A stretch of DNA of 64,000 bases, from contig BSYQ01000001.1 of NCBI GenBank assembly GCA_030272585.1, positions 9,811,001 through 9,875,000 of the forward strand, read 5' to 3'. Below, piece by piece: positions 16,304 through 64,000 of the stretch. The stretch is from Bryopsis sp. KO-2023. Its lineage: Eukaryota; Chlorophyta; Ulvophyceae; Bryopsidales; Bryopsidaceae. How positions within the stretch are numbered: the first letter of the stretch is position 1; the number at the start of each line of letters is the position of its first letter. The notes beneath the pieces were generated by a model. That model worked only from the letters and a program-made list of their open reading frames with translations. It searched no databases and was not told the origin of the DNA. The translations under genes and the position numbers were made by a program.

Positions 16304-18846
16304 TCACAGAATGTACTTGGATAAATCGATCTTCTTCAGAAGATCACCGACCCTCTCAGTGACGTCTTCCTTATCCACAACATACTGGTGCTCTTTCGAT
16401 CCACCCTCCCTTGCTTTGCTGGCGAGTTCGGGTGCATTGAAGCTGATATCTTCGATGATCCTTTCTATGACTGTGTGCAGCCGCCTGGCCCCGATGTTAT
16501 CGACGTTCTTGTTCACTTCGGCCGCCACTCGAGCCACCTCATGAATTGCAGCATCAGTGAAATGCAATTGGACACCTTCAGTGGCTAGCAAAGCTTGTTG
16601 CTGTCGGATCATGTTCAGCTCGGGCTCCGTTAGAATTCTGCACGCGCAAGCATGATACGGACAATAAACGAACAAGAAAGTCCAAATGCCAGTCTCTTGA
16701 TGGCCGAGGGAGGTTCTGCATAAAAATGCTAAGGTTGCGGCTATAGTTCATGTTCCACCAACTCACTCCATCGATCAAAAAATAACCAATGCCTGAATCA
16801 AACCTGTAGAAATCGCCGCTGGTGAGTCCCTTGAGTTCAACCCGGATCGGAAGACGACCTTGCATCTCGGCCAGCATGTCCGAGGGTTTCACGTGGTGGA
16901 AAGCTCCACTGCAAATGAAGAGTATGAAATCAGTGTTTACGTTTCCATACTTAGTGCTCACGACGGATCCCTCAATGATGGGGAGCAGATCTCGCTGAAC
17001 ACCTGCAAGAAGAAGGAGATAGGGTACCCTTTACATTTGCCCCCTTTGAATCCTCTCTCAGCTCAACACGCCGCCGCCAAAGGGAGCCAGTGAAGGACCT
17101 ACCAAAAATAAAAGCCGCCGTTTCCCCCAAATTTTTGTTTTTCCACATTGCACAAGAAGTAAAACCCTAGGCATGAATCCCCCCCCCCCCTTCCACCCTG
17201 CACCCAGATCCGTCCCATTCGTTCGCCCCACAGATAGTGGCCAGCGTAAACACTGCAGGATTATTCGCAAAGCAGGAAGTGGTTCTTGGATACAAAAAAA
17301 AGGTGTTTTTGAAAGGGAAAAAAGACAAGGAGGTGGATTACACCACTGTGCAAGGATATGCCCAATGGATCCTCGGCGTATCTTTAAACTTCAAAGGACG
17401 ATTCTCTTACAGGAATTCCTCTATTCTGACCAATTATCTTGAATATCGACCTCCATGTTCTGAAACATCGCCAATTCTGTAAAAGAACTGCAGTGCCCAC
17501 CTTCCGAGCTGGCATCAGCCCCGTAATGTTGCGAAGGGTTCACCACGATCTTATCGATTTCGTCGATGAACACGATTCCATCCTGCTCCACCGCCTTTAT
17601 TGCATCCCTTTGGATGACTTCTTGCGGCAGCATTCGCTCGGACTCTTGCTCCTCAAGCAGGGGCCGGGCTTCAGAAATTTTCATTTTGCGTTTTTCTTGT
17701 CTGGTGGGTACGATTCTGTCGAACTTGACATACCAGGGCCCCTGGAGCCCTTCTTGGCCGAAGGGACCCTCCAAGGGGGATTGCCTCGAGGAAGGGGGGT
17801 CGAACTCGATTTCTAGATTGTCCAATGCTCCCTCCCTTAGACACCGCCTGAAGGGAACACCAAATCGCTTCGAAACAACGCAGGAGCATTTGCATTCAGA
17901 GAAAAAAAGCAATGCCGTCCCACTTGACATTTCAGCAGAAATTTTAGTGTTGCACCCAGTTACGAGAATGTCTTAATCCACATCCAAAACACGAAAGAAA
18001 GAAAGCCAATGTACGCATCTTCATGAAGATATTTGAACCCCCCCCCCCACCAGAGCAACTGGACACCACAGAAAAACTTAACCGTCATTTCTACTCTTTT
18101 TCCCTTCAATCGTGGATTCGATGTTGGTTTCCATCCTAATTTTAGGGGAAAAAAAGTGAACACTCATGGAAAGTAGATGTCTTCCAATTTTCAACACACC
18201 TGAAGGATTCCCGATCTCGATTGCCATACTCAGTAGGATTGACCCCCACCAATTTCTCAATGATTTTATCCTCCACAGCCTTGTCGATTTCCCCAGCGAG
18301 CTTGGTCCTGAGCGTTTGTTTCATCAAGTGCATGGCATTGTCCACTAAATCCCTGATGATTTGATCGACGTCCCGCCCATGGAAACCCACCTCGGTAAAC
18401 TTCGTAGCCTCAACTTTCACAAACGGGGAGTTCGCGAGTTTCGCCAACCGTCGGGCTATCTCCGTCTTCCCACACCCCGTCGGCCCAATCATGAGGATGT
18501 TTTTCGGCACGATTTCTTGGCTGAGCGGGGTGGCAATCTTATGCCGTCTCCAGCGGTTTCTCAACGCGATCGCCACCGCTCGCTTGGCATCCCCTTGCCC
18601 AATGATAAATCTGTCCAGCTGCTCCACGACCGCTTTGGGAGTCAAATCTTGCTCGTTGTGCGTTGCGACTTCTTGCACATACTCCGCGATGGTGTTCTCT
18701 AGATCCTGCTTGGGGAGCGCCTCGCTCGAAAGCCAGCGCCTGACGTCCGGTCGAAAGAACTCAACGTCGCGGAGGACGTGCAGCGCCGGAACGCACCCTC
18801 CGAAGCAGAGCTGCACCAGGTTGACTTTCGCTCTCGCCAACGCCAT
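16304..18846 (-). CDS. HSLU: HslU, ATPase subunit of the HslVU protease, mitochondrial type
   Basis: AAA+ unfoldase that feeds proteins into the HslV peptidase, expected in mitochondria. Four exons (18200-18846, 17501-17847, 16804-17002, 16304-16637) join in frame to 508 residues. Walker A is GPTGCGKT at 121-128, followed by [16 protein letters not shown]. The intermediate domain spans the exon 1-2 junction ([13 protein letters not shown]). Walker B is [12 protein letters not shown]. Later motifs are [30 protein letters not shown] and [11 protein letters not shown]. It ends in KYIL, the HslU-type tail that inserts into HslV. The first ~65 residues precede the bacterial-type start and are rich in R and hydrophobics, suiting a mitochondrial leader. 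Introns rule out bacterial contamination. HslV itself is not in the window. Confidence 0.95.
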
Positions 18847-19080: not shown

Positions 19081-22000
19081 ATGCGGACGATAGGTTCGGC
19101 AAGGTTTTGCCAATGTTTCCCGGCTAGGAAAAACGCCGGGCGTTCGAGAGTCCACGGCACTGTCGGCGGACGTCACAGAAACCAGGCACCTGCTACTGTA
19201 TACGCGTGTCGGAGGAAAACCCTTCCTATCGGACGATCAAGATCAGCGTCGGGAAGGTGCTATGCTGAGAAAAACAACGGCACAGGGCCGCTCCGAGATG
19301 ACGGAGACGAGCGAGAAGGCCCAAGTGCAGACCTCGCGGTCATTTTCAGTCGGATGCAAAAGGTCTGTGGTGATTCTGGTGACTGTGGATGGGATGCCCT
19401 CGAATCCATCCCTGAGCATGATTTTCGACATTCAGTTTCCATTGCATTTCCATTGCAAGTCTGACATCCAGCATGACATGACATGAACTCGGTAGCAAAT
19501 TTGTGAAGGTGTTTGTATTGGCCTTGTGCATCTTCAGCTTGCGTTGCCTTATTGGAACGATCCTGAGAAAGCCACGGAGGCCCGATGGAGACTCGGTGGT
19601 GTGGTGGCATTGACTTTGGCAACCACTGGTGTCAGGTGATCCAAGAAAAAAAAATAAAAATAAAAAGTTTCATTTCAAAGAATAGCAAAACAGCAGCAGA
19701 AATTTTTGAAATCGATGCACCACCGGACCCACTGCCAACCAAGAATAAAATCATTGCATGATTAGTCAAAACAAAACGTGCTGGTTGAACTCTGCTGATA
19801 TCAGGCATCGGCCATCAGGAAAATAGAGAGGTTTTGAATGGGTGGATTTTTGATTGATGGAGTGCACTGGCTTGCCCCTTTATTGCAGTGTTTTGTTCAA
19901 TTTCTTGGGCCGGGACTTCTTTAATGCTCTTTCTCAACGAGATGCTGATGCATTCTACTCACAGCTTGTGAAATATCTGGGCGGATTCGCGGTCGGAATT
20001 CCAATCTTTGTGTTCAGCGGTTATTATCAGGTGTGTGTGTGTTTTAGTGGAAATGATAAAAAAAAATCTCTTACAAAGAAGTTTTTTATTGGGAAGGGGG
20101 GGGGGGGGGAAGGGGCAAGCCAGGCTCAGCATTTTTGTCAATATGTTATTGGGCTAGAAAGCGAAAAAATTGACTCGCTCCGCATGTAAACCCACTGTTG
20201 CGATGGTGAAATCCCCAGCAGCTTCCATAAGTATTGAACAAATAATTCCAAGAAACATGTAATGATGCCCAGTTTTTTTGATTCTACAGGAGAGTTTTTT
20301 TTCTTTATCGTTATTTTTTTTTTGTTGGTTGGTGTTCGCAGCGTGGTTTTCAGTTTTCTCGGTCGAGACTTTTTTAACGCTTTATCTGAGAAAGACACAA
20401 CACAGTACACGTATCAGCTGACCAAATTCCTTGGAGCGAATTGCGTGGGAATCCCTGTCTTTGTCTTCCGCAAATACTACAAGGTCTGTTTGAATCTTCA
20501 TTAAAAAGCATCCGGGAACACCATCGCAACACACTAGAGTGGAGTCTGCTTACAACATTAAGAATAGGAGGAGGGGGGGAATATATATTATATATATTAT
20601 ATTATTACATATTATATTTATTTTATTTTTGTATATAAAATTTTGTGCAGTTTGTGTGTTTGTGTGTGTGTGTTGTTTCTTCTTGATGTCGAGTCGTAAT
20701 AGCATCGTTCCGGTGCCCAAAAAATGGATGGTTATCCACAAACAATATTAGGGTTTAGGTCGCAGCTGGGGAAATCATCATCAAGTGCCTTGCTTGTTTT
20801 TTTTTTTTCTTCGGAGTCATTTTCTCAAAAATGGGTGTCTCTGTCTTGCGGTGCTGCAGAGTAAACTGTCCTTGGAGTGGCGAGAATGGATGACGAAAGA
20901 CTTCCTGTCAAATTATCTTTCGAAGCGGACGTTTTATCAGATTCAAGCCAATTCCCCTCTGGATAACCCCGATCAGCGTATTTCGGCTGATGTCAAGTAA
21001 GGGTCGAACACAATACACGCATCCTATCGGGGACATAAGAAAAAAAGATCATTGCTTGTGGATGGAAATGAAAGATAACGTCAGAACTCCCTCATCTTTT
21101 TTTTTTTTTTTTTTTTTGACTTGAAAAGTGTTGCTGAACGATGTAGCAAAGTGATGAATGTCTGCTTTGTATGGCCCAGAAAACGGAACGATATAAACAT
21201 GGTGTGGTTTAAATATATATTTTTTCTTTTTTTCCTTTCAGGGTGTTCACGGATTCTGCCCTTGGGTTTGTGTTGACCATTCTCAATGCGGTCATCGATC
21301 TGATTTCCTTCTCAGAAATATTGTTTTCCATCTATCCACCCCTGTTCATAGCTCTGGTGGTTTATTCAGTTGGGGGAACAGGAGTCTCTCTGTGGCTGGG
21401 CCGGGTAAGGTGATGCTGAATCCTTGTGGAAAAGCCAACCATGAAAAAAGTATAACAGTACAACATATTTGTACTCATATATCTATATAAACACAAGCAG
21501 TGATAGATCTATTGACTGGCAGACTGGCAGTGCAATGTTCATAACTCCCTGATGCATTTCTGGCAAGAGATATGGACCTCCACTGGCTTTTCCCTCCTTT
21601 TTTTTTTGTTTTCTACAAGATAATGATAATGCAGTGTCCCAAGAAACTCCCTGAAAAGATTTAAAGCAGTTCAAAGTGTCGTTCAGTGGTTTCCGAGTCG
21701 ATGAAGGGTAGCAGACCTTGTTTGTTGCTCCATGGTTACTGTGAAGTTATTGAGTATATTGTGTGTTTGCAGAGCTTGGTTGGGTTGAATTTCCAGCAAG
21801 AGGCACGAGAAGCTGATTTCAGGTATGGCCTGGTACGCCTCAGAGAAAATGCTGAAAGTATCGCATTCTATGGTGGCGAGAAGAAGGAAGGAAATCTGGT
21901 CATCAAGGTAAGACCCCCCTTTGATGTGCATATCCATGGGCTGACAAAAACTCCACCAGGAAAGGCAAATGTCAAGAAGCTTTGATTGTATCGATGTGGG

Positions 22001-24270
22001 GTGGAGATGTTTGCATTCTTTACACATGGCTGTTAGTAACATCAAAGACGGTGAAAGGATTCAGGGATCTTTCTTAATTTTGTTCTTTCTCAACAGAGAT
22101 TGACCGATGCGGTCGGTAACTTTGGCGATTTGCTGATCGCCTCCCGAAACCTGGAGTTCTTCACGTCGTTTTACCGTTACATGATTGCCCTTCTCCCTGC
22201 AGCCGTCATCGCTCCACTCTACTTCAAGGTACGATCAACAAGACACGTCCCCTCTCGATATCTCAATGAAACGAGAAAATACACTGCAGTTTCACGTGTT
22301 TTACGAGTTCTGGATCTGTTGGGGGTGGGGATTTTGAGATGTGCATTGTGGTGTTTGCAGGGGGAAATCGAGTTCGGTGTGGTCACACAGAGCCAGTCTG
22401 CATTTGCCCATATTCTTGGAGATGTGTCGCTTGTTGTTTACCAGGTATGTCCAGAATAAGCCTTTCAGTAAGCACTGTAATGTTCCCTCCAGCAGACATT
22501 GGATGTAAATCTTGTTGATTCACAGCTGTGGCCAAATCCATTGCACCCTAATGATATATTGCAAACTTCACATGGAGTGCTTCAGCTTCCAACACAGTGT
22601 TTGTGTTTCGACACTGATCTTTCACCGATTGCCTGATTGTGGTCTACATCATCTGTGGTTTTTTGCAGTTGGAGTCGTTGGCTGGGTTCAGTGCGGTGGT
22701 GGATCGATTAGGGCAGTTCCAAGAAGTGATGGACACTTGTCAGACAGATGAGCAGTCGAACGGAGATTTGCCCCGGATTTCCTTGGTCACAGAAACTCCT
22801 GGAACTCGTTCGACAGACCCATTGCTCATGCTGAACAATCTCACGCTTATGACTCCTGATTCTGGGTCGATGCTGATTAAAGACATCTCTTTGGAGGTAC
22901 GCGTGCACCCATTTTTCAAACATCCCCTGGTCTTCCTTTTCGCAAGTCAACAGAGGAAGAGATCTGCCTCATGAAATTTAGTCTTGGATATGTGCGTTTA
23001 TGTGATCTTTGTCGGCCACCCTCCTCCATCGTTTTCCATGGCTTGTTCGCCTCCATGGCTAAGATTTTTTCCATGGAACTCCCACATATTTTTCCGCTGA
23101 GCGATTTCTTGTCGTATGCAGGTGCTGCCACAGGAATCCTTGTTGATAATGGGCCCAAGCGGTGCTGGGAAAACATCTCTGTTGAGGGCGGTGGCTGGGC
23201 TTTGGTCATGTGGATCCGGCGAAATCACCCGCTTTGGAACCCCAGTGGGAAATGAAAAACAAGACGGAGACATAATGTTTGTTCCACAGAGGCCCTATTT
23301 GGTGCTGGGCAGTCTCAGAGATCAGATGCTGTATCCTACATGGTCAGACAGCGTCTCCACAACGGAAAACGGGGATGAGCCCACCGTTGTGGTGGAAAAC
23401 AAGAGAGGGCTGCCGACCGACTTTGATCTGGAGCAAATGATGGTGCAAGTCAGACTGGAAGGAGTATTACAGAGATGCAGAGATGGTGCGGTTGTCTTTT
23501 GCCATCCCATGGTGTGCAACGCCTTAGCATCAATGAAACTGGATAAACAGGTCATCTTTTGGAAACGCACACACAGAGGCTTAGTTTACTGGGAAATATG
23601 ATGTGGTTTGATGGGTTCTCTTGTCATTTTTCACAGCCAGCAACAAACCCCTCGATGTGATTGCGGATTGGTCCACTCAATTGTCGTTGGGTGAGCAGCA
23701 GCGTCTGGCGTTCGCCAGAGTGCTGTTATCGAAGCCCAGGCTTGTGTTGATGGATGAATCCACAAGTGCCCTGGATGTGGATAATGAGAAGAGGTTATAC
23801 GAGGTACAATGAAACTGAGGGGTCCAACAGTATGTGAATGAAATGCAATCGAGTTCGTTTTTAGACGTGAATTATGAATGCATGTTTAATTTGCATTAGG
23901 CAAACTTGCCCAACTAAGGCCGTCACGAGGTGATCTAGCCCAAGCCCTTGGGAAAAATCCAGCTCAACATTTGTTTGGATGTATACAGATGAAAAATATG
24001 TGAATTATCGTCTCGTATCGGCATTCTATGGAATAGGCTTGGAAGTGTGGGAGAGTTTGTTGATCGTGATTTCCATCGACTGTGCTTGGAACTTTTTTCT
24101 GTAATGTTTTTCAGATGCTGGATTCCTCGGGGACTACGTATGTGAGTGTTGGCCACCGGCCGACCTTGGAAAATTTCCACAAGCGAGTGTTGCAACTTCT
24201 TCCGGGGACTGACGATCAACCAGAGCCCCAGTGGAGAGTCAAACAAGCGACACCAGTCCCTTCTGGCTGA
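19081..24270 (+). CDS. ABCD2: ABCD2-like half-size ABC transporter, probably plastid, with two alternative exons
   Basis: Subfamily-D/SbmA-like half transporter: one membrane domain then one ATPase domain. Exons: 19081-19362, 19538-19635, then 19889-20030 or 20342-20483, 20860-20996, 21242-21404, 21773-21907, 22097-22228, 22361-22444, 22669-22896, 23122-23485, 23637-23803, 24115-24270. With one alternative exon this gives 2088 nt, 695 residues, all phases agreeing. The first ~90 residues are rich in Arg, Ser and Ala, like a chloroplast transit peptide. Membrane-domain marks: FLGRDFFNALS, NPDQRISADV, NFQQEAREADFRYGLVRLRE. ATPase marks: Walker A GPSGAGKTS, Q-loop VPQRPYLVLGSL, signature LSLGEQQR, Walker B LVLMDEST, H-loop SVGHRPTL. 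Closest known type is the predicted-chloroplast ABCD2 of Arabidopsis; substrate unknown. The duplicated exons are annotated separately. Confidence 0.92.
19889..20030 (+). other. alternative exon A of the ABC transporter (142 nt)
   Basis: Encodes about 47 residues of the membrane domain, beginning VLFNFLGRDFFNALS and ending VGIPIFVFSGYYQ. It starts in phase 2 after TTGCAG and ends in phase 0 before GTGTGT. Exon B has the same length, phases and a related sequence (28 of 47 residues identical by my count). Confidence 0.9.
20342..20483 (+). other. alternative exon B of the ABC transporter (142 nt)
   Basis: Encodes VVFSFLGRDFFNALS to VGIPVFVFRKYYK, the homologue of exon A, 311 nt downstream. Start phase 2 after TTCGCAG, end phase 0 before GTCTGT. 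Using A and B together, or neither, gives an early stop, so each transcript should contain exactly one. Confidence 0.9.
20578..20640. repeat. AT-rich simple repeat in an ABC transporter intron
   Basis: TATATATTATATATATTATATTATTAC-like tract followed by TTTATTTTATTTTTG. It lies just after exon B in the intron before 20860. Confidence 0.85.
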
Positions 24271-37283: not shown

Positions 37284-38138
37284 CTAGATTGGACTTCCCC
37301 CCATCTCTTTAATGCTGCTGGTCTCTTCGGTCCCCTCCCCAAGGGCCAACCCATCCCTGTCGCTCCCGCACAACCCCACCTCTTGCGACATCGCCCCCGC
37401 CACCTGGGAGTTTTGATAGAGCTCCAGAAACTGCGAACAGATGTCCTCCACGGTCGGGGAGGGTATACCGGAGACGTCCAACATGAACCTCCCGTCGAAC
37501 TCCACATTCAGCAGACGTCCCGACAAAAACACCAAACTCACGGCAATCCATTCGGGGTCGTACTGAACGCTGAGTTGCGTCCGGAAACTGTCGTGGAGCA
37601 AATTGTTGGTCACATGGACCATGTCTTTATACTGACGCTCGTGCAGCATTCCCCCGACGAACATATATCGCAGGTACGTGAAGCCATACACGTACGGATG
37701 GTCCACCTTAACCACGCTCCCGCAAGCCGATATCACCTCCACCTGAATTTGCAACACTTTCTGTACCAACGCTTCGAAAAACTGCTGGTTGTATAACATC
37801 TTCAACTTGTTCGGGTCGTTGTCGTTTTTCACGTTGAAGCACACGTATATGATTCTGTTCAAAGGAATCATGTGCTGCTCCACCTGCGTTGCCAACCAAA
37901 GACAGGCCATCGACGCGGCGAAACGGTCGGTTCTAATCGGTTTCACTGTAAAAAGACGCTGACAGTAAACCAAGGAGGTCGCGATCGTCAGTTGAGGGAG
38001 ATTCAATGCCCGACCAGCGTCGAAAATGAAGCCACAAATCGCAGTTCGATAGCGCTGCTCAGTCGAGTGTTCTAAACCTGCTGCGCGGTTGGGGTTGGTC
38101 CTTTCCAGATCCTGACGGGTATAATACACCACCGGCAT
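37284..38138 (-). CDS. cyclin T/K-like transcriptional cyclin
   Basis: Single exon of 284 residues from ATG 38138. It matches the cyclin T/K/L group that activates CDK9/CDK12-type kinases for RNA polymerase II elongation. Near the start is YYTRQDLERTNPNR, then EQRYRTAICGFIFDAG, the cyclin-box core SLVYCQRLFTVKPI and ASMACLWLATQVEQ, then VDHPYVYGF, and a second-box stretch SVQYDPEWIAVSLVFLSGRL. The protein ends shortly after the second box with no His-rich or long RS tail, so it is a minimal form. Its start lies 226 bp from the EMG1 start on the other strand. Assignment between T and K types is not settled. Confidence 0.8.
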   Translation of the reverse strand: MPVVYYTRQDLERTNPNRAAGLEHSTEQRYRTAICGFIFDAGRALNLPQLTIATSLVYCQRLFTVKPIRTDRFAASMACLWLATQVEQHMIPLNRIIYVCFNVKNDNDPNKLKMLYNQQFFEALVQKVLQIQVEVISACGSVVKVDHPYVYGFTYLRYMFVGGMLHERQYKDMVHVTNNLLHDSFRTQLSVQYDPEWIAVSLVFLSGRLLNVEFDGRFMLDVSGIPSPTVEDICSQFLELYQNSQVAGAMSQEVGLCGSDRDGLALGEGTEETSSIKEMGGSPI

Positions 38139-38364
38139 TTCGATTGCGCGCGCCAGAGGGCAAAAAGCCCGCAACAAAACCAAGGAAAAGCACATCTTCC
38201 CACAATCGCAGGCAGTTTTTCTCGCTGCGATGCTTACCGTACATGCCGTACCGATTTGTACAGGACTCAATCTTAGAAAAAGCATCACGTCATCGCCCCC
38301 TCTTTGCTTTCCTTTGTTCCCTAGCTACTGGTCGCTTTTTTTTTCCAAGCGAAACGCCGGAACG
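38139..38364. promoter_or_regulatory. presumed divergent promoter between cyclin and EMG1
   Basis: 226 bp between opposite start codons. No individual element recognised apart from a T-run just before EMG1. Confidence 0.5.
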
Positions 38365-39060
38365 ATGAGAGGAGTGGGGGGGTTAAAACCACCTTCCCAA
38401 GAGGAGGAGGACGCTAAGGTGAAGAGCGCAAAGCATCACGTGATTTTCGTTCTGGAGGCGGCGTGTCTGGAGGTGGGAAAAATCGGATTCAAGCACTACC
38501 TGTTAAACAGCGACGACCACAAGACGCACCTCGCGAGCAAGCAGAAAAACATCGAAGACTTTCGGCCGGACATCTGCCACCAGTCCTTGTTGGCGATACT
38601 GGACTCCCCCCTGTGCAAGGCCGGAAAAGTGAAAACTATTTTCGTCCACACCACCGCGAACGTGCTGATAAAAATCGACGCTCAGACGAAGCTGCCCAGA
38701 ACCTTCAGGCGGTTTTCTGGCTTGCTGGTGCAATTGCTGCACAAATTCTCGATAAGATCGACAAATGGACCGGGGAAATTGCTGCAGTGTGTGAGGGGAC
38801 CGGTGACTGATCACTTCCCAGCAGAGGCACAGGTGATTGGCTTGTCCAGGGCTGCTGATCATGAATTGAAATGCCATGAACTGGCGGAGGAGCTGGAGGA
38901 CGATCGGCCAATCGTGTTTGTGGTGGGGGCGCTAGCACATGGCCACGTGAAGGTGGATTATTTAGACAAAGAAGTGTGCGTTTCGGAATTTCCGTTGAGT
39001 GCAGCTTGTTGCCTTTCGAAGCTGTCGAGTGCACTCGAGCAGAAATGGGAAATTGCTTAG
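38365..39060 (+). CDS. EMG1: EMG1/NEP1, 18S rRNA pseudouridine N1-methyltransferase
   Basis: SPOUT-class methyltransferase required in the nucleolus for small-subunit ribosome assembly. Single exon, 231 residues, from ATG 38365. Family motifs run in order: HVIFVLEAACLEVGKIG, YLLNSDDH, RPDICHQSLLAILDSPLCKAG, VFVHTTANVLIKID-like (IFVHTTANVLIKID), RTFRRFSGLLVQLLHKFSI, KLLQCVRGPVTDHFP, then the SAM-binding knot IVFVVGALAHGHV and SEFPLSAACCLSKL. Length and order match the eukaryotic family, with a normal N-terminus (RGVGGLKPPSQEEED). Nothing is missing. Confidence 0.95.
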   Translation: MRGVGGLKPPSQEEEDAKVKSAKHHVIFVLEAACLEVGKIGFKHYLLNSDDHKTHLASKQKNIEDFRPDICHQSLLAILDSPLCKAGKVKTIFVHTTANVLIKIDAQTKLPRTFRRFSGLLVQLLHKFSIRSTNGPGKLLQCVRGPVTDHFPAEAQVIGLSRAADHELKCHELAEELEDDRPIVFVVGALAHGHVKVDYLDKEVCVSEFPLSAACCLSKLSSALEQKWEIA

Positions 39061-47684: not shown

Positions 47685-50600
47685 AAATTTCGCACCTCGA
47701 AAAAAAAGAAAGGTTCCAGCCTTTTTTTTTTTTTTCGCAGGATAAAATCATGGACCCACCACGGAGTGTTTTTCTTTATGGTTTTTTTCTTTTCTTCTTT
47801 CTTTTTAAATTCGGTCCGATTTGATGTGCGGTGTGCGGTTGTCTATTTTTCTTTCTGTTTTTTGGTTGGTTGATGGAGGTTGAGAATCGGGGTGGATGGG
47901 TATTTGGGGTGGTGCTGTGTGTGTGTTTGTGTGTTTGTGGGGTTCCTGTGTTTCGTTCAAGGATATGTGGTGTTTTTAATCGGGAAAAGGAGCAGAAACC
48001 TATGCATCCGTGTCGGAGTTTTGACAGCTATAGGTTTTTGTTAATGTAGCTTAATTCGCGGGTGGGGTGGGAAAAAAAAGATGAGTTCGAGTTTCGAGAG
48101 GGAACGCGATGGGGGTTTTCTTGTCGAAAAAAGAATGGAGAGCCTGAAAGGGAAAAAAAATGAAAAAAAAAACTGATTTTCAGCAGAGACAAAAAAAACA
48201 CGGAAGAAACAATGTGGGGCTTGAATGGATGTGTACTGGAGCCAGGGTCAATTTGAACCAAACACCACGATTTATTCTGGAAAGAAACAGGAAAATGTAT
48301 TTCCAACATTTATAACAATGTTGATAGGATGGTGGATTTCGAGAAGGAAAAAAAACCCAAAAAAAACAGAAAGTTAGTGTTGCAGCCAAAAAAAAAAAAA
48401 GATTCAGAAAGAAAGAAGACAAAAAAAAAAAGAGAAACGAGAGCCGATCCAATTTAAAAACAACCGGCTCGAAATCGTGGGTGCCTTTTCTTTTGTGTGT
48501 TAAAAAAAAAAAGAAAAAAACCCGAAGGAAAGGTCCCACGCGAATTTTTCCATTTCTTGCATTTATTCATTCTTGTGAGGAAAACAGTGTGCCTGTTTGA
48601 GTTTTTTTAAAAGCAACGGTGAAAAGGGAGGGGGAAAAGACTTACGGGAAAAAAGAAAAGCAAACAGCAAAGAAAAAGAAAGAGAGAGAAAAGGGGCGGA
48701 TGGGGTATTTGGTTGGAGGAGGATAAAGGAAGCACAGGATCTGTGAACAAGAGTGGGTCGAAATTTTGCCGGAATTTCTTTGTTTCAAAAGGGAGTCATA
48801 GCCTTGTTTTAAGGCTATGAAAAAAAGAAAAAAAAAAGTCAGGGTGTTTCTTTCCCCATTTTTTTCTGTTCGTTTTTTTTCTTTCTTTCTTGTTTTTTTG
48901 GGCACTTTTCCGGCAAGTGCTTGTTTTTTTTTTTTTTAAATGGTTACACATGGTGCGTTTGGAATTTGAAACAGAACCAGGGAAAAAAGTGTGCAGATGC
49001 TTTGCTGTTTGGTTTTTGTTTCGGAAATTGGAAAAGAGAGATGGAGCTTGGGGGGAGGGAGGGGGTGGCAAAGAGGGGTGGGGAAAAAGGGGTATGCTTG
49101 TAAAAAGGTGAGAAAAGAAATCACGATTAAGGGAAGCGAAAACAGAAAAAGAAAAAAAAAAAAAAGTTGGAACAAAAACGAAAGGGCGTGTATTTGTTTG
49201 TTTGCTTGTGTGTGTGCGTGTGTGTCACTCCCCTCTTTCTGTAAAATTTCAGAAAATGAGGCACGGAGTCTGGAAAAGGAGAGAGAGAGGGAATGGGTTT
49301 TCGAAAAAGAAAACAAAAAAAAAAGAAAAAGAAGAGAGGGGAAAAGGGTTGATTGATCGAGAGAAAAAAGAGTGAGAAAAGTGGGGCATGCACACCACCT
49401 TTTTCGTTGACTGCGAAAAACACAAGTGTGATGTTGCAAAAAAGTGTGACATTTCCTTGTCAATGTGATGTGTGCGTGTGTGTGTGTGTCTTATATTATA
49501 TAAAAAAAAGTGTATGCATCCGCTCATATGCAACAAAAAGAAAAAAAAGAGTGATATTTTTTTGCCGTTGTTGAAGTTTTGTTCGGCTAGCGGCTTCCTA
49601 AGGGGTTAACCTGTGTTATGGGATATAAGGGATTTGTAGAGGCAATTTTCCTCGGCATACAGCATAAAGTTTGGCATTTGTTCAATTTTGGAAAGAAGGA
49701 AAGAAGAGTTGGGCCCAACCCAACTGTGGGGGGAAAGAGGGTGTTGTGAAATGTGGAGCAGAGAGTCTTTTTTTGGTCAATGTCGAAAAGGAAAGAAAAA
49801 AGAAAGAAATGGGAGAAAATAAATAAAGGAAACTCAGGGGGTTGTATGTATATGCAAGCTGAGAAATCTGGATGAAAGGCGGAGGAGAGGGCTATGAATT
49901 TGTATGGGTTTTGGAGGGGGATCTTTTCTCACACTCTCTCTCACTCTTTTTTGTTTTTGCCTAGGAGCAGAACAAGGAAGAATGAGAGGAGAAAGAAACA
50001 GAAAAGAAAAAAATATCGGTTGCATATGTATGCATTCGTTTTGGGGTTTTTTTTGCACTGACCTTGAATTTTGTGGATTTTTTGAATGGATGCAGACATA
50101 TATTTTCGTTTTGTGGTGGCGGTTTCTCTTGTCCAGATTGCATTTGGGAAAAAAGGGTGGGGGAAGAAAAAAGAGGAGGAGGATTGGAGAAAGCAGCAGA
50201 AAAAAATGCAAGTTTTTGGATTTATTATTGTCTGACTTGTGGTGGGTTCGTTTTTCGGATGCTCTGGAGGAGGAGCACTGGGTGGTGGGGTTGGAAAGAC
50301 GTTTATAAAAAGACATTTCTGACAGTTTTTCTACACACTAGTCGATGCAATTTATTAGGGGGATGTTGGCGTAGCATTGACGATTTTTTTTTCCCCAAGG
50401 ATCCTGGCAGGGAGTCAAGTTGATGGCAAGAGGATATTTTCATGTACATATATATATTTGTAGGCATGCATTGGTGGGAGTGTTGTAAAAACATATCATC
50501 TCATTCGCTTTGTGTTTCATTGTGCATTATACATACAAATTCAAAGATCACCAGTGTGCTGCTGGAGGGATTGAAAACAGAATGTTCCTGAGTGAGGCTG

Positions 50601-53278: not shown

Positions 53279-55705
53279 GTTTGGGAAAAGGGGGGGGAGC
53301 AGGAATTGCATATCATGATGTTGAAGCAGGTCGTGTGTGTGTTTGTTTAGTTTGGTGGAAATGTAGTTATAATATGCAACAAGAACAGACCATTTCCTTC
53401 TGGATTCTATCCACATGCACTACTACATGAACACCATCCTGCCCGATCATCAGCAACATATATTTCACTTTCTGCAACGTAAAAAATGAACAATCCTTCA
53501 TCTGCTCTATTTGAGAAAAGCAGATCCCACTGCCATATTTTGTCATCTCAACGAAACGTTAACATGCTGCATTTTCAGGCAGACCTGGAATTTGAACCAG
53601 TGTTATGGGACAGTGACTTTCCCCTAAATACTGACACTCCCTCAGCCAATGTTCCCTGTGGCTCTCAAAACCAAAGAAGCTAGATCTCCTTCCAAAGGGG
53701 AAAATGAAGGATCGTTGGTGTTGTGCATAGATGTGAGGATCGTGCCACAATCAAAAGCATTTGAAAATGGGATATAGTGACACTGATCAACCAGGGCACA
53801 TGAAAATATCAATTTACAAGGATGCATGCATCCAATCCCAGGGTGTCCAAAAGAAAAGAAGATGAAAAAGCCCTCCAAGAAAGGAAACAATTCAAAATAA
53901 CCACTTCGCCCAAAATGAAAAGACACAGAAAAACATGCTCAGCCCCCATGACTGACAGCAGCCAAAATGTAATCGTCTCCTAAGAACTTCAAAAAATTGC
54001 TCCATCCAAGCGAAATCGAATGGCCGAAAAACACAAACCCCCTCCAGCTTCACTCCCCCACATCTGTGAAAATTTTCCTACGGCTTTTCAATAGTACATT
54101 CTTTCTAAGGAATTGCATTCTCCTCCGGCTGAGCGCCCCTCCCTCCTCTCTCTCACAATACATTTATATAGTCCAGACCCGTTCTTTTCCATTTTCTTAC
54201 CCAGCGAAACACACACATGTTTCCATCGATAAGGTTAACTGTCACAATACCACCTTTTTCTCTTCCTTTTTTCCCTTTCTTTTTCCCTTCCTCTTTCTCT
54301 TCCGTTTTAAATTTCCTTTCTTCCCTAGCAGCCGCACCCAATGTTGCTGACTCTAAATCGATCTCATTCATTTAGTTTTCTCATTCGTTGGTTGTTTCTA
54401 CTGTACATTCCTGTGTCTATAAAATCAGGATCATTCAGTTTTCTCATTCGTTGGCCGTTTCTACTGTACATTGTTGTGTCTGTAAAATCAGGATCAATCT
54501 CCCAGAGTCCCAACACAACGCATTGTTGTTTTTGTTCTTCCTGTTCTCAAGGGCTTGTGGAAGGCAAGGGGTGGAGGGCTCAAACAAGTAATGAGTCTTT
54601 TCCATGTATAGATAACTAAATAAAAATATTCTTCCACGTGTTTGGGTGATCCAAGTGAAAGCTTTGTGACTGGAACTTAGTTATGGCCTTCGTCATTTCT
54701 TTGAACGAGTATGTCAAAAAACAAACAAACATCGAATTGTATTGTGGAATCCCAAAACAAATCAAGCCCATAACTTCAGACGACACCTTGATCCATCAAC
54801 AGGATGGTTTCCTAAAGTGATCAACATTCCAATTTCAGAGGAAGCCTTTTTTTTTCCATACATTATATCATCATCATTGAAAGCCAAGTTGTGGTAGTGT
54901 TATGTTGCTGCTTTGTTGAATCAAAATTTCAAAGTTTTGAGAAAGGGGTGTGGAGTTCTTTTGATCATCTTCATTTGTCTGGGGACCTAAATGAAAAATT
55001 GAAGATTGGAAGTGTCAAGCTCAAGTTTTCTTAATGGTTGCACCAACCAATGGCACTATCATCATTTCTCAAATGACCAAGAAATAGGGTGACATCAGTC
55101 CCACTCAATAAAGAGTCATCTTCCCTCACTCATTCCAAAATAGTTGTCTGGATACATTGTGTTCTTTTCTGTTTCTGTTTCTTGTGATGGAACTGTCCGC
55201 GATTACAAAAAGGCAGTTGCATGGATGAGTAGCAACCTCTTTCCGGTTTTCCAAGGTTTTTGCAGTTGCTTTGCAAGTGGCCTCAATGAGGATTCAAGTG
55301 ACTGCCAGACCAACTCTAGGAGAAACCTTTTGTAAATTAAAAAATGCATAAAATCTTACAGATACAGCTCTCAAGAGCTGCGTGTGCGTTCTTCTTTTGT
55401 ACAACAAAACAAAATATAATTCCAACATAGATTTAAAAAAAACAATTTCTTTTTTCCGAGAACCAAAACCATGTTGCACATCACGAATTCTTGATATTTG
55501 CCATCCCTCATCAAAAAATTAACCTCCCCAACCTGAAACACATGCAAAAAAAAAAACAGGAAATCCATCAAAACTGGCTTCACTCATAGACCTCGTATTA
55601 CTGTCAATAACACACAGGCATGAAATCCCCATCCATGCAACATATTTTTACAAAACAGTTGCATCACTCGATGCTTTTGTCAAACTGGCCATACCTGAAT
55701 TCCGA
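53279..55705. other. 2.4-kb stretch without a supported gene
   Basis: No topoisomerase exons found here. One acceptor-led frame at 53581-53682 (ADLEFEPVLWDSDFPL, to a TAG) could be a terminal exon of something, unproven. The rest is AT-rich with T-runs and C/T-rich tracts near 54240-54320, and includes a duplicated 63-bp unit. Confidence 0.5.
54368..54493. repeat. imperfect tandem duplication, 63-bp unit
   Basis: Two adjacent copies of a unit containing TCATTCGTTGG, TTTCTACTGTACATT and AAAATCAGGATCA, differing at a few positions. Intergenic. Confidence 0.85.
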
Positions 55706-61400: not shown

Positions 61401-64000
61401 ATTGTATTTTTTTCAGGCAGCAGATCTGCTAGAATGGTCCACAATGCCTGAAGCCTTCTATCATCAATTCGACACAGCAGCACAAACAACAGAAAACATG
61501 AGGGGGGTCATGGAAGCTCTATTCGTATCATTGCTCAAGGTGAGGAGCCTTTCAGATGGTTATATCAAACAAACAATTTGGGGTTTCCCATTGCCCCCAA
61601 ATTGCTGCCCCAACGCACTCCTGATCTCGATCGAAACGTATTGACATTGATCAAATAGGCAGCGCAAATGCTTCTCTTATGCTAGACTTTATGATGTTGT
61701 TGGAAAAAAAATAAACCTGTAAACTTTTGAATTAGTTTCCTTGACGCTGAGATTGGTTCAAAAACTCGCAGGGTTATCGAGAGTTGCTGGGTCCGACTGT
61801 TATGTCTGCATTGGAGACCGTTTCGTCTAGATGCCCTGTCGGTGTTGTGCCAACTGATCAAGCAGAAATTGGGGGTATTCCTGGGACGGTTTTGGAAAAA
61901 GAGGCAGTTTACCATGCCGTCGCAGTAGGATCATACGATTTGTATGACTACGTCAATTTCTCAAGCTGGTATAGATCCACGCTTGTGCAGGTATGTCATG
62001 CACCTCCTAGTCACCATCAGGCCATGACACTAGCCAAGGAAATATCCTCGGGTTGAACTCTAATGGAAGGATCAGATTGGGTGTTTGTTTTGACAGGAAT
62101 TGAACAATAAAAACCCCAAGCTTTGGCCTCTACGGCGACAAGCTGCCATCCTTGCTGGTGCATGGGTTTCCGAACTGAAAGATGAAGATCGGACGGTGGC
62201 ATATCGAGGATTGGCTGGACTGCTGTCGGAGGCGGACCTGTGCTTGAAATTGACTGCTGTGAGCGTCCTTCGGCTTCTAATCGACGATTGGGCTTTTCAA
62301 GAAAAGAATTTCGTGGAGTTTGCTGGGCCTGTGTTAGAATCTCTCGCCCAGGTGTTGCAGTCGGCGGAAGACTTGGAAACACAGATAAAGGTGTGAGTGC
62401 AATCAATCCTGCCACCAAGCCCCTCAAAAAAAAAAATAATAATAATAAACGGTTGAAAAAAAATCTTCGTCAGTGCAAGGCCAGTCAGCCCTTGCAACAG
62501 AAAAGTGTGATGAATCTGTTGGATTCAGAATCAAAATTTTAAACTGATCGACAACGAGCAGAAATGTGTTGAAATTTGAAATATATGTTTGTTTCTTACG
62601 TTAGCTTGGATTTTTTTTGAATTTTTTTTTTTCAGGTTTTTGGGTTGGTGAACGTGATTGTGGAGAGAATGGGGGATGAAGTGAAGCCATTGGCTGGGGG
62701 CCTCGTTCAACTGTTGCCCAGGGTGTGGAATCAAGGGGAGGGTCAGAGTCTGCTGAGAATGCAGGTCTGTCTGGCAGCATTTGTATTTATTTATTTTATA
62801 AAAGAAAAAGAAAAAGCAAACAGCGCTCCAATAGACCAACATCTTCCAAAACACGAAAAGAACCGCCTACTCTCATTTGGATGTTCATTTCTTTTACCAG
62901 TTTTTTCAAATCAGTTTATCCTTTTTCACGCCGAAGTCTCCCAGGGGGGATTTGTTTTCTGACCTAAAGTAGATTTCTGAACACCGAAAAGCGTATTTCA
63001 AAACAAAATTTCGGTCTATGAAATTGCAGCGCATTTACTGTACAGGTCTTGACAGCCTACCAGCATTTGTTGAATGCGATTGGGGCGGAATGCCCGGCCA
63101 CATTTCCCTGGTTGGTACCTGCTATTGCTTATTCCATCGATGTGGACCAGCCAGAGTCGCTGGTATTGTTGGAGGATGGACTCAACCTCTGGCTGGTGGC
63201 ACTGAGGAATACCACAGAAACTCAGGGTGGAGTGCTATTGGATTTGTTCCCCCATGTGGCCAGAATCATGGAAAGATCCACAGGTGCGAAACGTAATATT
63301 GATATGTTGAATGGATAAGATTTGTGGGTTTAGGGGTTACGTAATATTGATATGTTGAATGGATAAGATTTGTGGGTTTAGGGGTTACGTAATATGCGGT
63401 AAGGATTCTGATCTGTGGAGGGACCATACCCTTGAAGTTTTGAATTTTTTTTGGTAAGTTATATGCTTGTTGATATTGACACATTTGAAAAACTTGCCCA
63501 CATCTTCATCCATTGAAATGTTGACTCACCGACATTTCTGAAAACAGTACCTACAGCATATTTCATAGCAACTTTTTCGACGATTTTGTTCTTTACAGGT
63601 GAACTGTGGGTCTGCATGCAGATCCTTTCCAGCTGCGTGCTTTTGGGTGGAATTCCGTTCATATCCAAATTCGCTGCTAAAATTGCATCCCAATTCTCGG
63701 CACTGATCGGGGACATTCGGGATGCTGCCTACAGAGTCATTTCGCCCACGATGGAAAACATTTTGAGGGTGGCCCCGGCCGAAGGGGCGATGCTGTTGAA
63801 AGGACCTTTGGTTAAGTTGACGAAAGTATTGCTGATGCCGTCTGGAGATGCAGGGGTGGCGATGGGGGCGAACACGATCGTGTTTTCGGCAGTCACTGTG
63901 GTGTTTTCGAGGGTCATTATGTGGAATGCTATGTTTCTGGTGGAAGCGCTGCAAGAAGCTGCCAACTCCGGGGAATTTGGAGGGACGGATGGTATGGCGA
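58449..64000 (+). CDS. IPO11: importin-11 (karyopherin-beta), cut by the window end
   Basis: Nuclear import receptor; HEAT-repeat solenoid that binds cargo and RanGTP. Exons: 58449-58601, 59005-59108, 59283-59355, 59547-59753, 59932-60078, 60277-60494, 60703-60901, 61130-61246, 61417-61539, 61772-61990, 62097-62390, 62636-62764, 63046-63283 and 63599 onward. All junctions agree in phase, giving about 874 codons before the edge. IPO11-specific line-up: KPAEAALEELASRPGFCS, RWLASVHLKNTVNKSW, RFDFPTHWPSLF, ELSTKRLPADQKLF, KEAVYHAVAVGSYDLYDYV, WPLRRQAAILAGAWV and SLVLLEDGLNLWLVALRN. The junction 60494/60703 drops about 30 residues relative to animal IPO11; a small exon near 60575-60610 may be missed. 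The C-terminal part lies beyond 64000. Confidence 0.93.
61275..61375. repeat. ATGCA-rich degenerate repeat in an IPO11 intron
   Basis: Repeated words CATCCTGCA, TTGCACC, ATGCAC, CATGGGCAT and CATGCATGATG occur in close succession between the exons ending 61246 and starting 61417. Many are self-complementary, so the tract can form hairpins. Confidence 0.75.
63291..63396. repeat. 48-bp tandem duplication in an IPO11 intron
   Basis: Two perfect copies of a 48-bp unit (63291-63338 and 63339-63386), beginning ACGTAATATTGATATG and ending GTTTAGGGGTT, plus a 9-base partial third copy. It begins 8 bases inside the intron after the exon ending 63283. Confidence 0.95.

Follow-up and report, generated by a model that had tools for sequence, protein, structure and literature searches.

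Two intronic stems enclose a predicted pair of mutually exclusive exons in an ABC transporter gene of a green alga

Transporter gene and its tandem exon pair

The window, i.e., the whole 64-kb stretch of DNA analysed here, contains on its forward strand a transporter gene that was reconstructed as 13 exons, 12 of which would be used at once to give a protein of 695 residues with either of two alternative exons, A and B (Table 1). Exon junctions were placed by eye and by reading frame, and the start codon was inferred; as laid out, all 12 introns are GT-AG.

The product is predicted to be an ABC subfamily D-like half transporter. As a single chain, isoform A matches both PF06472 (ABC_membrane_2; 174.6 bits) and PF00005 (ABC_tran; 73.1 bits), a combination shared with PDB entries 9wfg, 6tqe, and 6jbj, which represent ABC subfamily D and related half transporters. 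The best PDB sequence matches include 9wfg (ABC transporter D family member 1), 6tqe (listed as an ABC transporter ATP-binding protein/permease, and presumably mycobacterial Rv1819c), as well as ABCD4 and ABCD3, with 6jbj also named; the score against TIGR00954 (peroxisomal fatty-acyl transporter), at 258.5 bits, is far below the cut-off of 918.9 bits. Compared with half transporters of subfamily D, the gene is distinguished by a basic presequence and by an alternative membrane segment. The first 60 residues contain 14 K/R and no D/E, a composition that is compatible with, and no proof of, a transit peptide. The protein is probably targeted to the plastid, and the designation "plastid-type" in a preliminary description of this DNA is plausible, its one basis being this basic, acid-free N terminus.

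Table 1. Exons, stem arms, and an additional pairing partner of the transporter gene, in window coordinates
Feature	Position	Strand	Details
Exon 1	19081..19362	+	Candidate ATG and basic N-terminal presequence; start and junction that yield the 695-aa frame
Exon 2, common, 5′ of the alternative pair	19538..19635	+	Matched at 9830538-9830636 of contig 1
Stem A, 5′ arm CTGGCTTGCCCCTT	19867..19880	+	Positions -22 to -9 of the exon A acceptor
Alternative exon A	19889..20030	+	Residues 128-174 of isoform A; splice sites, frame, family match, codon analysis
Stem A, 3′ arm AAGGGGCAAGCCAG	20110..20123	+	Within the A-B intron
Stem B, 5′ arm TGTTGCGATGGTG	20196..20208	+	Within the A-B intron
Alternative exon B	20342..20483	+	Residues 128-174 of isoform B; splice sites, frame, family match, codon analysis
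Stem B, 3′ arm CACCATCGCAACA	20519..20531	+	First base is position 36 of the intron that follows B
Weak alternative partner of 20202-20222	20762..20782	+	17/21 pairs; competes with stem B and likewise loops out B
Exon 4, common, 3′ of the alternative pair	20860..20996	+	Gene reconstruction
Eight further common exons	21242..24270	+	Remaining membrane domain and ATP-binding domain; gene reconstruction, domain matches
First four of these eight exons	21242-21404, 21773-21907, 22097-22228, 22361-22444	+	
Last four of these eight exons	22669-22896, 23122-23485, 23637-23803, 24115-24270	+	

Exons A and B have the same length (142 nt) and the same phase, lie 311 nt apart, and are bounded by the acceptor and donor sequences GCAG/TG and CAG/GTGTGT (A) and GCAG/CG and AAG/GTCTGT (B), at coordinates that the preliminary description had given exactly to the base. 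Inclusion of either exon alone yields 2088 nt, corresponding to 695 amino acids and a stop codon, whereas joining of A to B leads to TAA as the 12th codon of B (product of 185 residues) and skipping of both leads to TGA (product of 137 residues). At these splice sites, the frame is preserved solely by one-at-a-time use, as had been claimed. The accompanying statement that inclusion of both exons is out of frame holds for the same sites, but not for 65 alternative combinations of a GT/GC donor (sought at 19960-20099) and an AG acceptor (sought at 20250-20419), which are candidate dinucleotides only and keep the frame through parts of A and B. Mutual exclusion of exons A and B is very probable, as a strong prediction from the sequence.

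The two exons are identical at 28 of 47 residues and at 81 of 142 nucleotides (57%). In a self-comparison of 21 stretches totaling 264 kb (the window and twenty 10-kb pieces), which returned 177 matches, the A-B pair (E = 7.7e-19) was the sole match of the window among the matches listed, and those listed outside the window were mostly minisatellites or repeats. Codons of A and B differ at 31 of 47 third positions, at 16 first positions, and at 13 second positions, and 18 of the 28 shared residues are specified by different codons. The dN was estimated as 0.37 (NG86) or 0.35 (maximum likelihood); the dS was not computable by NG86 and was 19.6 by maximum likelihood, i.e., saturated. Neutral simulations at the same nucleotide distance (n = 5000) retained at most 22 identical residues, versus the 28 observed, and introduced a stop codon in 4269 of the 5000 runs. 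The assemblies of exons 2-A-4 and 2-B-4 both score above the PF06472 cut-off (55.0 and 55.9 bits, respectively), in agreement with the proposed location of the swapped segment in the membrane domain, and the 40-nt intronic flanks of the two exons match at 15/40 and 18/40 positions. Saturated dS, residue identity beyond that of the simulations, and equal family fit together show that the duplication is old and that both copies have been retained as coding sequence. Tandem duplication had already been put forward in the preliminary description, and it is consistent with the equal length and phase of the exons, their shared residues, and the match of both to PF06472; the pair is, on this evidence, an old tandem duplication, each copy of which is under purifying selection.

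A search of the genome (91.09 Mb, 28 contigs) with the exons 2-A-4 segment produced five matches at E values up to 1, namely both alternative exons and the two neighbouring exons, plus a distant one (31% identity) on contig 6. The family search located three more PF06472 loci in the genome, two on contig 6 and one on contig 1. Bacterial relatives were represented by two loci, one of which spans the alternative segment and is 36% identical to isoform A over the aligned stretch.

The interchangeable residues comprise the end of the first hydrophobic segment, a loop, and the second hydrophobic segment. The motif FLGRDFFNALS is identical in A and B, and 19 of the 47 residues differ between them; A contains 3 K/R and 3 D/E (net charge 0), while B contains 6 K/R and 3 D/E (net +3). 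The second segment of A exceeds the threshold of 1.4 in a simple hydropathy scan over 19 residues (value, 1.59) and that of B does not, indicating that this segment is more polar in B. Since the isoforms differ in hydrophobic segments, loop, and net charge, transport or gating could differ between them.

Intronic stems around exons A and B

A repeat search identified two perfect exon-enclosing stems that are new here, being absent from the preliminary description. Stem A (14 bp) encloses exon A and covers its pyrimidine tract, stem B (13 bp) encloses exon B, and the two arm pairs have no sequence in common. With simple sequence excluded, they exceed in length every other perfect inverted repeat of the 64-kb window (arms up to 700 nt apart); of 14 perfect repeats in the window that measure 13 bp or longer, the simple-sequence filter removed 12, and the stem search was made after the exons had been seen. 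The 14-mer has two occurrences in 91 Mb, both of them here and in opposite orientation, and the 13-mer has eight occurrences in the genome, including two here in opposite orientation.

Several comparisons were used to gauge how readily such an arrangement arises by chance. When the flanking introns were resampled 250 times under a first-order Markov model, neither pair ever reached 13 bp (longest, 12 bp). Random placement of the same geometry within 264 kb, with the A/B locus excluded, yielded a counterpart of the first stem in 497 of 197,739 placements and of the second in 583, and never both. For the other 9 of the 11 internal exons of the gene, pairing between adjacent introns amounts to 10 bp or less, and a 12-bp pairing exists in one pair of non-adjacent introns of the gene (10 and 12). 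With respect to number, the window has two inverted repeats of 13 bp or more, compared with a mean of 1.0 in 20 simulated windows; 11 such repeats, including apparent repeat elements with arms of up to 67 bp, were present in twenty other 10-kb pieces, taken at round coordinates of contigs 1-11. The number of stems is not excessive; their placement alone is improbable.

In predicted folding, with a program unable to draw pseudoknots, the pairing probability of stem A was at least 0.99 at all seven transcript ends tested. Stem B varied with context: its probability was 0.96-0.97 when the transcript was shorter, 0.59 for the 1281-nt region, 0.93 when the flanks were extended, and 0.13 when intron 1 had been taken out. 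Both stems were present in 610 of 1000 sampled folds, stem A only in 390, and stem B only in none. The arms follow one another in the order a-A-a′-b-B-b′, an arrangement in which the stems neither overlap nor form a pseudoknot; lying one after the other along the transcript, they are therefore able to form together. Their predicted coexistence counts against structure alone enforcing a choice of one of the two exons, and coexisting stems would by themselves favour skipping of both.

Weaker pairings were also observed. The imperfect pairing between 20202-20222 and 20762-20782 (Table 1) uses some of the same nucleotides as the 5′ arm of stem B and, without intron 1, replaces stem B in the predicted fold; its 17/21 pairs were equaled in 4 of 200 resamplings, and it is therefore regarded as suggestive. 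A hand-over model, according to which excision of intron 1 would free an arm and alter the accessibility of exon B, was rejected: the unpaired probabilities of the B splice sites changed from 0.32 to 0.33 and from 0.42 to 0.43. Another imperfect pairing (16 nt, 88%) links 19735-19750, in the intron before A, with 20317-20332, within the pyrimidine-rich sequence that precedes B. It is weak (16 matches in the best 21-nt window), and its arms would be interleaved with those of stem B. An RNA duplex scan across whole introns left nearly everything paired and was uninformative.

Proposed mechanism and alternative explanations

The main reading, to which a probability of about 0.8 is assigned, is that A and B are mutually exclusive tandem exons, both of them used, in a predicted ABC subfamily D-like half transporter, probably plastid-targeted, of Bryopsis or a close relative. 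Very short intervening introns and mixtures of U2 and U12 splice sites are mechanisms of such exclusion. Steric crowding is unlikely here, since the A-B intron is ordinary in size (311 nt, within the 132-376 nt of the gene), and a U2/U12 clash is unlikely, since all 12 donors are GT and none has a U12-like context, as judged by eye against the U12 consensus. The donors of A and B are ordinary, with U1 pairing energies (-9.6 and -5.4, respectively) inside the range of the 12 donors of the gene (-4.6 to -10.8).

The working model is kinetic, in that stem A would hide the acceptor of exon A unless this acceptor is used early or the stem is opened. By burying the pyrimidine tract of A and drawing the exon 2 donor nearer to B, stem A would cause A to be skipped and B to be used; with the acceptor hidden and the distance from exon 2 to B shortened, B is proposed to be the default choice. 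If the A acceptor were recognised before the arm at 20110 is transcribed, or if the stem were opened by a factor, exon 2 would be joined to A, after which stem B could loop out exon B and bring the donor of A nearer to exon 4. Products with both exons or with neither would reach early stops and be discarded. Gene anatomy, selection on both copies, and the non-random placement of the stems are established here, whereas stem formation in cells, its effect on splice choice, the removal of wrong products, and the difference between the proteins are the inferred steps of this model; a guiding role of the stems in choosing between A and B is given about even odds. A broader interpretation, offered tentatively, is that the locus represents a new topology in the green lineage: each exon would be caged by its own unrelated, non-pseudoknotted stem, and the choice would be made through the kinetics of transcription and splicing or through melting of stem A by a factor or by temperature, rather than by docking-site competition. 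Such an arrangement would have originated independently of animals and would switch a loop and a membrane segment of a plastid transporter.

The role assigned to the stems, but not the exclusion of the exons, is contested by the possibility that protein factors, or splice-site competition together with nonsense-mediated decay, select the exons and that the stems are incidental. The ordinary donors of both exons, the early stops reached by A+B and by neither, and the coexistence of the predicted stems, which do not themselves enforce one-of-two use, are all in keeping with this explanation; stems around exactly A and B are nevertheless improbable by chance, and the 14-mer is restricted to the locus, such that the explanation is plausible but judged to fall short of even odds. 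The early termination of both joint outcomes would likewise suit an unproductive-splicing switch, in which joint inclusion or joint skipping turns the gene off and the difference between isoforms is secondary. Folds containing both stems would promote double skipping, but a switch of this kind leaves the distinct, family-fitting protein sequence of both copies unexplained and is considered unlikely.

The remaining alternatives concern the exon pair itself. The near-complete formation predicted for stem A might silence exon A, which would suit the view that one exon alone is used and that the other is a relict, silent or seldom spliced in. An unused copy should have decayed, however, whereas both copies still have their splice sites, match in phase and length, and fit the family despite synonymous saturation, making a relict quite improbable. 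An artefact of assembly or gene modelling, arising from collapsed alleles or a misjoined paralogue, has no observation in its favour and is highly improbable: the nucleotide identity (81/142) is far below the allelic level, the five matches of the genome search comprised the locus and one distant match at 31%, and the flanking exons are present as one set. If the mutually exclusive use of A and B under the guidance of their stems is true, the locus, in a siphonous, giant-celled green alga, would test whether structure-guided exclusion arose more than once and whether competing structures are required for exclusion, and it would provide an organelle transporter with a membrane segment swapped through splicing. 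The stems are short and perfect and can be mutated and restored, making the mechanism directly testable.

Known systems and further features of the window and genome

Tandem swappable exons are well known in animals and rarely documented in algae. The earlier remark that such pairs are rarely described in green algae was borne out, in that one case verified by RT-PCR was found, cyn23 of Volvox carteri; according to the available part of its report (PMC4378016), exons 4 and 5 (106 nt each) are arranged in tandem, used one at a time, and differ at 13 positions, with both variants verified by RT-PCR. Like the Bryopsis pair, these are two tandem exons of equal length in a green alga. The cyn23 gene is cyclophilin-related, whereas the Bryopsis gene is a predicted transporter in which 19/47 residues of a membrane-domain segment differ; moreover, stems flank both Bryopsis exons, whereas no RNA structure is reported for cyn23 in that part of the text (PMC4378016). 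In Arabidopsis, the Kassiopeia resource, as excerpted (PMC3923563), lists 99 candidate mutually exclusive exons and states that, when it was written, genes with such exons were "not described at all" in A. thaliana. This set resembles the present pair in its similar criteria, its tandem homologous exons, and its position in the green lineage, and consists of predictions only.

In the literature covered here, models in which RNA structure governs mutually exclusive exons are based on animals, insects above all; PMC6071210 gives an overview of them. In the bidirectional pairing described there for exon 4 of srp, the two alternative exons are flanked by complementary intronic sequences that form two pairings, and a pseudoknot hinders these pairings from forming at the same time (PMC6071210). 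The Bryopsis locus resembles this layout in that complementary pairs of 14 and 13 bp enclose exons A and B, respectively. Unlike in srp, the arm order gives no pseudoknot and both stems appear in 610/1000 sampled folds. Since its strong stems form no pseudoknot, the locus, as modelled, is not srp-type on these features. Competition between docking site and selectors is described in the same excerpt for Dscam exon 6, 14-3-3zeta, and Mhc (PMC6071210). Long-range intronic pairing beside tandem-duplicated exons is common to these systems and the Bryopsis pair, but the strong Bryopsis stems have no common arm. Between the outer introns (before A and after B), the best perfect pairing is 7 bp, and imperfect A/T-rich pairings reach 16/21 between the intron that precedes A and the A-B intron, and 15/21 between the outer introns. 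A docking-site/selector model is thus unsupported by the strong stems, although the weaker imperfect pairings might still provide for one. Among the matches listed in full-text literature that included few subscription journals, no report of the Bryopsis exon pair and no structure-guided mutually exclusive exons in algae were found; the literature covered included parts of a microalgal review (PMC12702839) and of a Chlamydomonas paper (PMC7534427).

Elsewhere in the window, a divergent gene on the reverse strand (17500-18846) adjoins the transporter and resembles, by eye, an HslU/ClpY-type protease ATPase. Two overlapping divergent frames, at 37284-38288 (reverse strand) and 38230-39060 (forward strand), appear by eye to be cyclin-like and Nep1/EMG1-type rRNA methyltransferase-like, respectively. 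The segment at 48001-50000 has the highest GC skew (0.394) and AT skew (0.158) of the 32 two-kb bins, and short tandem repeats occur at 54368-54496 (63 bp) and 63291-63395 (48 bp).

In the wider genome, a piece of contig 7 (1000001-1010000) contains a tandem duplication with a period of about 2,690 bp, signs of a third partial copy, and translated matches that are 100% identical among the matches listed. The light-harvesting family is large, with 107 exon-level PF00504 matches genome-wide. One light-harvesting fragment is identical at 103/104 residues to Bry-Lhcb1 of PDB 8hlv, which is taken to be from Bryopsis corticulans, and equally to chains of 9k7v and 9jzr; two repeat-bearing chains of 9vfj outrank 8hlv for this fragment by summed score only. 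Chlorarachniophyte polyubiquitin carries an insertion between its units; in the polyubiquitin repeats of the present genome, the units are joined without insertion. On this ground and on that of the Bry-Lhcb1 match, a chlorarachniophyte origin, to which genome size and intron richness had pointed, was rejected, and the organism is taken to be Bryopsis or a very near relative; the genome of Bryopsis sp. KO-2023 has the accession GCA_030272585.1 (PMC12509668). Contig 17 contains, within about 63 kb (134903-198226), ten diverged ubiquitin-like matches that have 38-65% identity to ubiquitin and lie in open frames of 145-355 aa.
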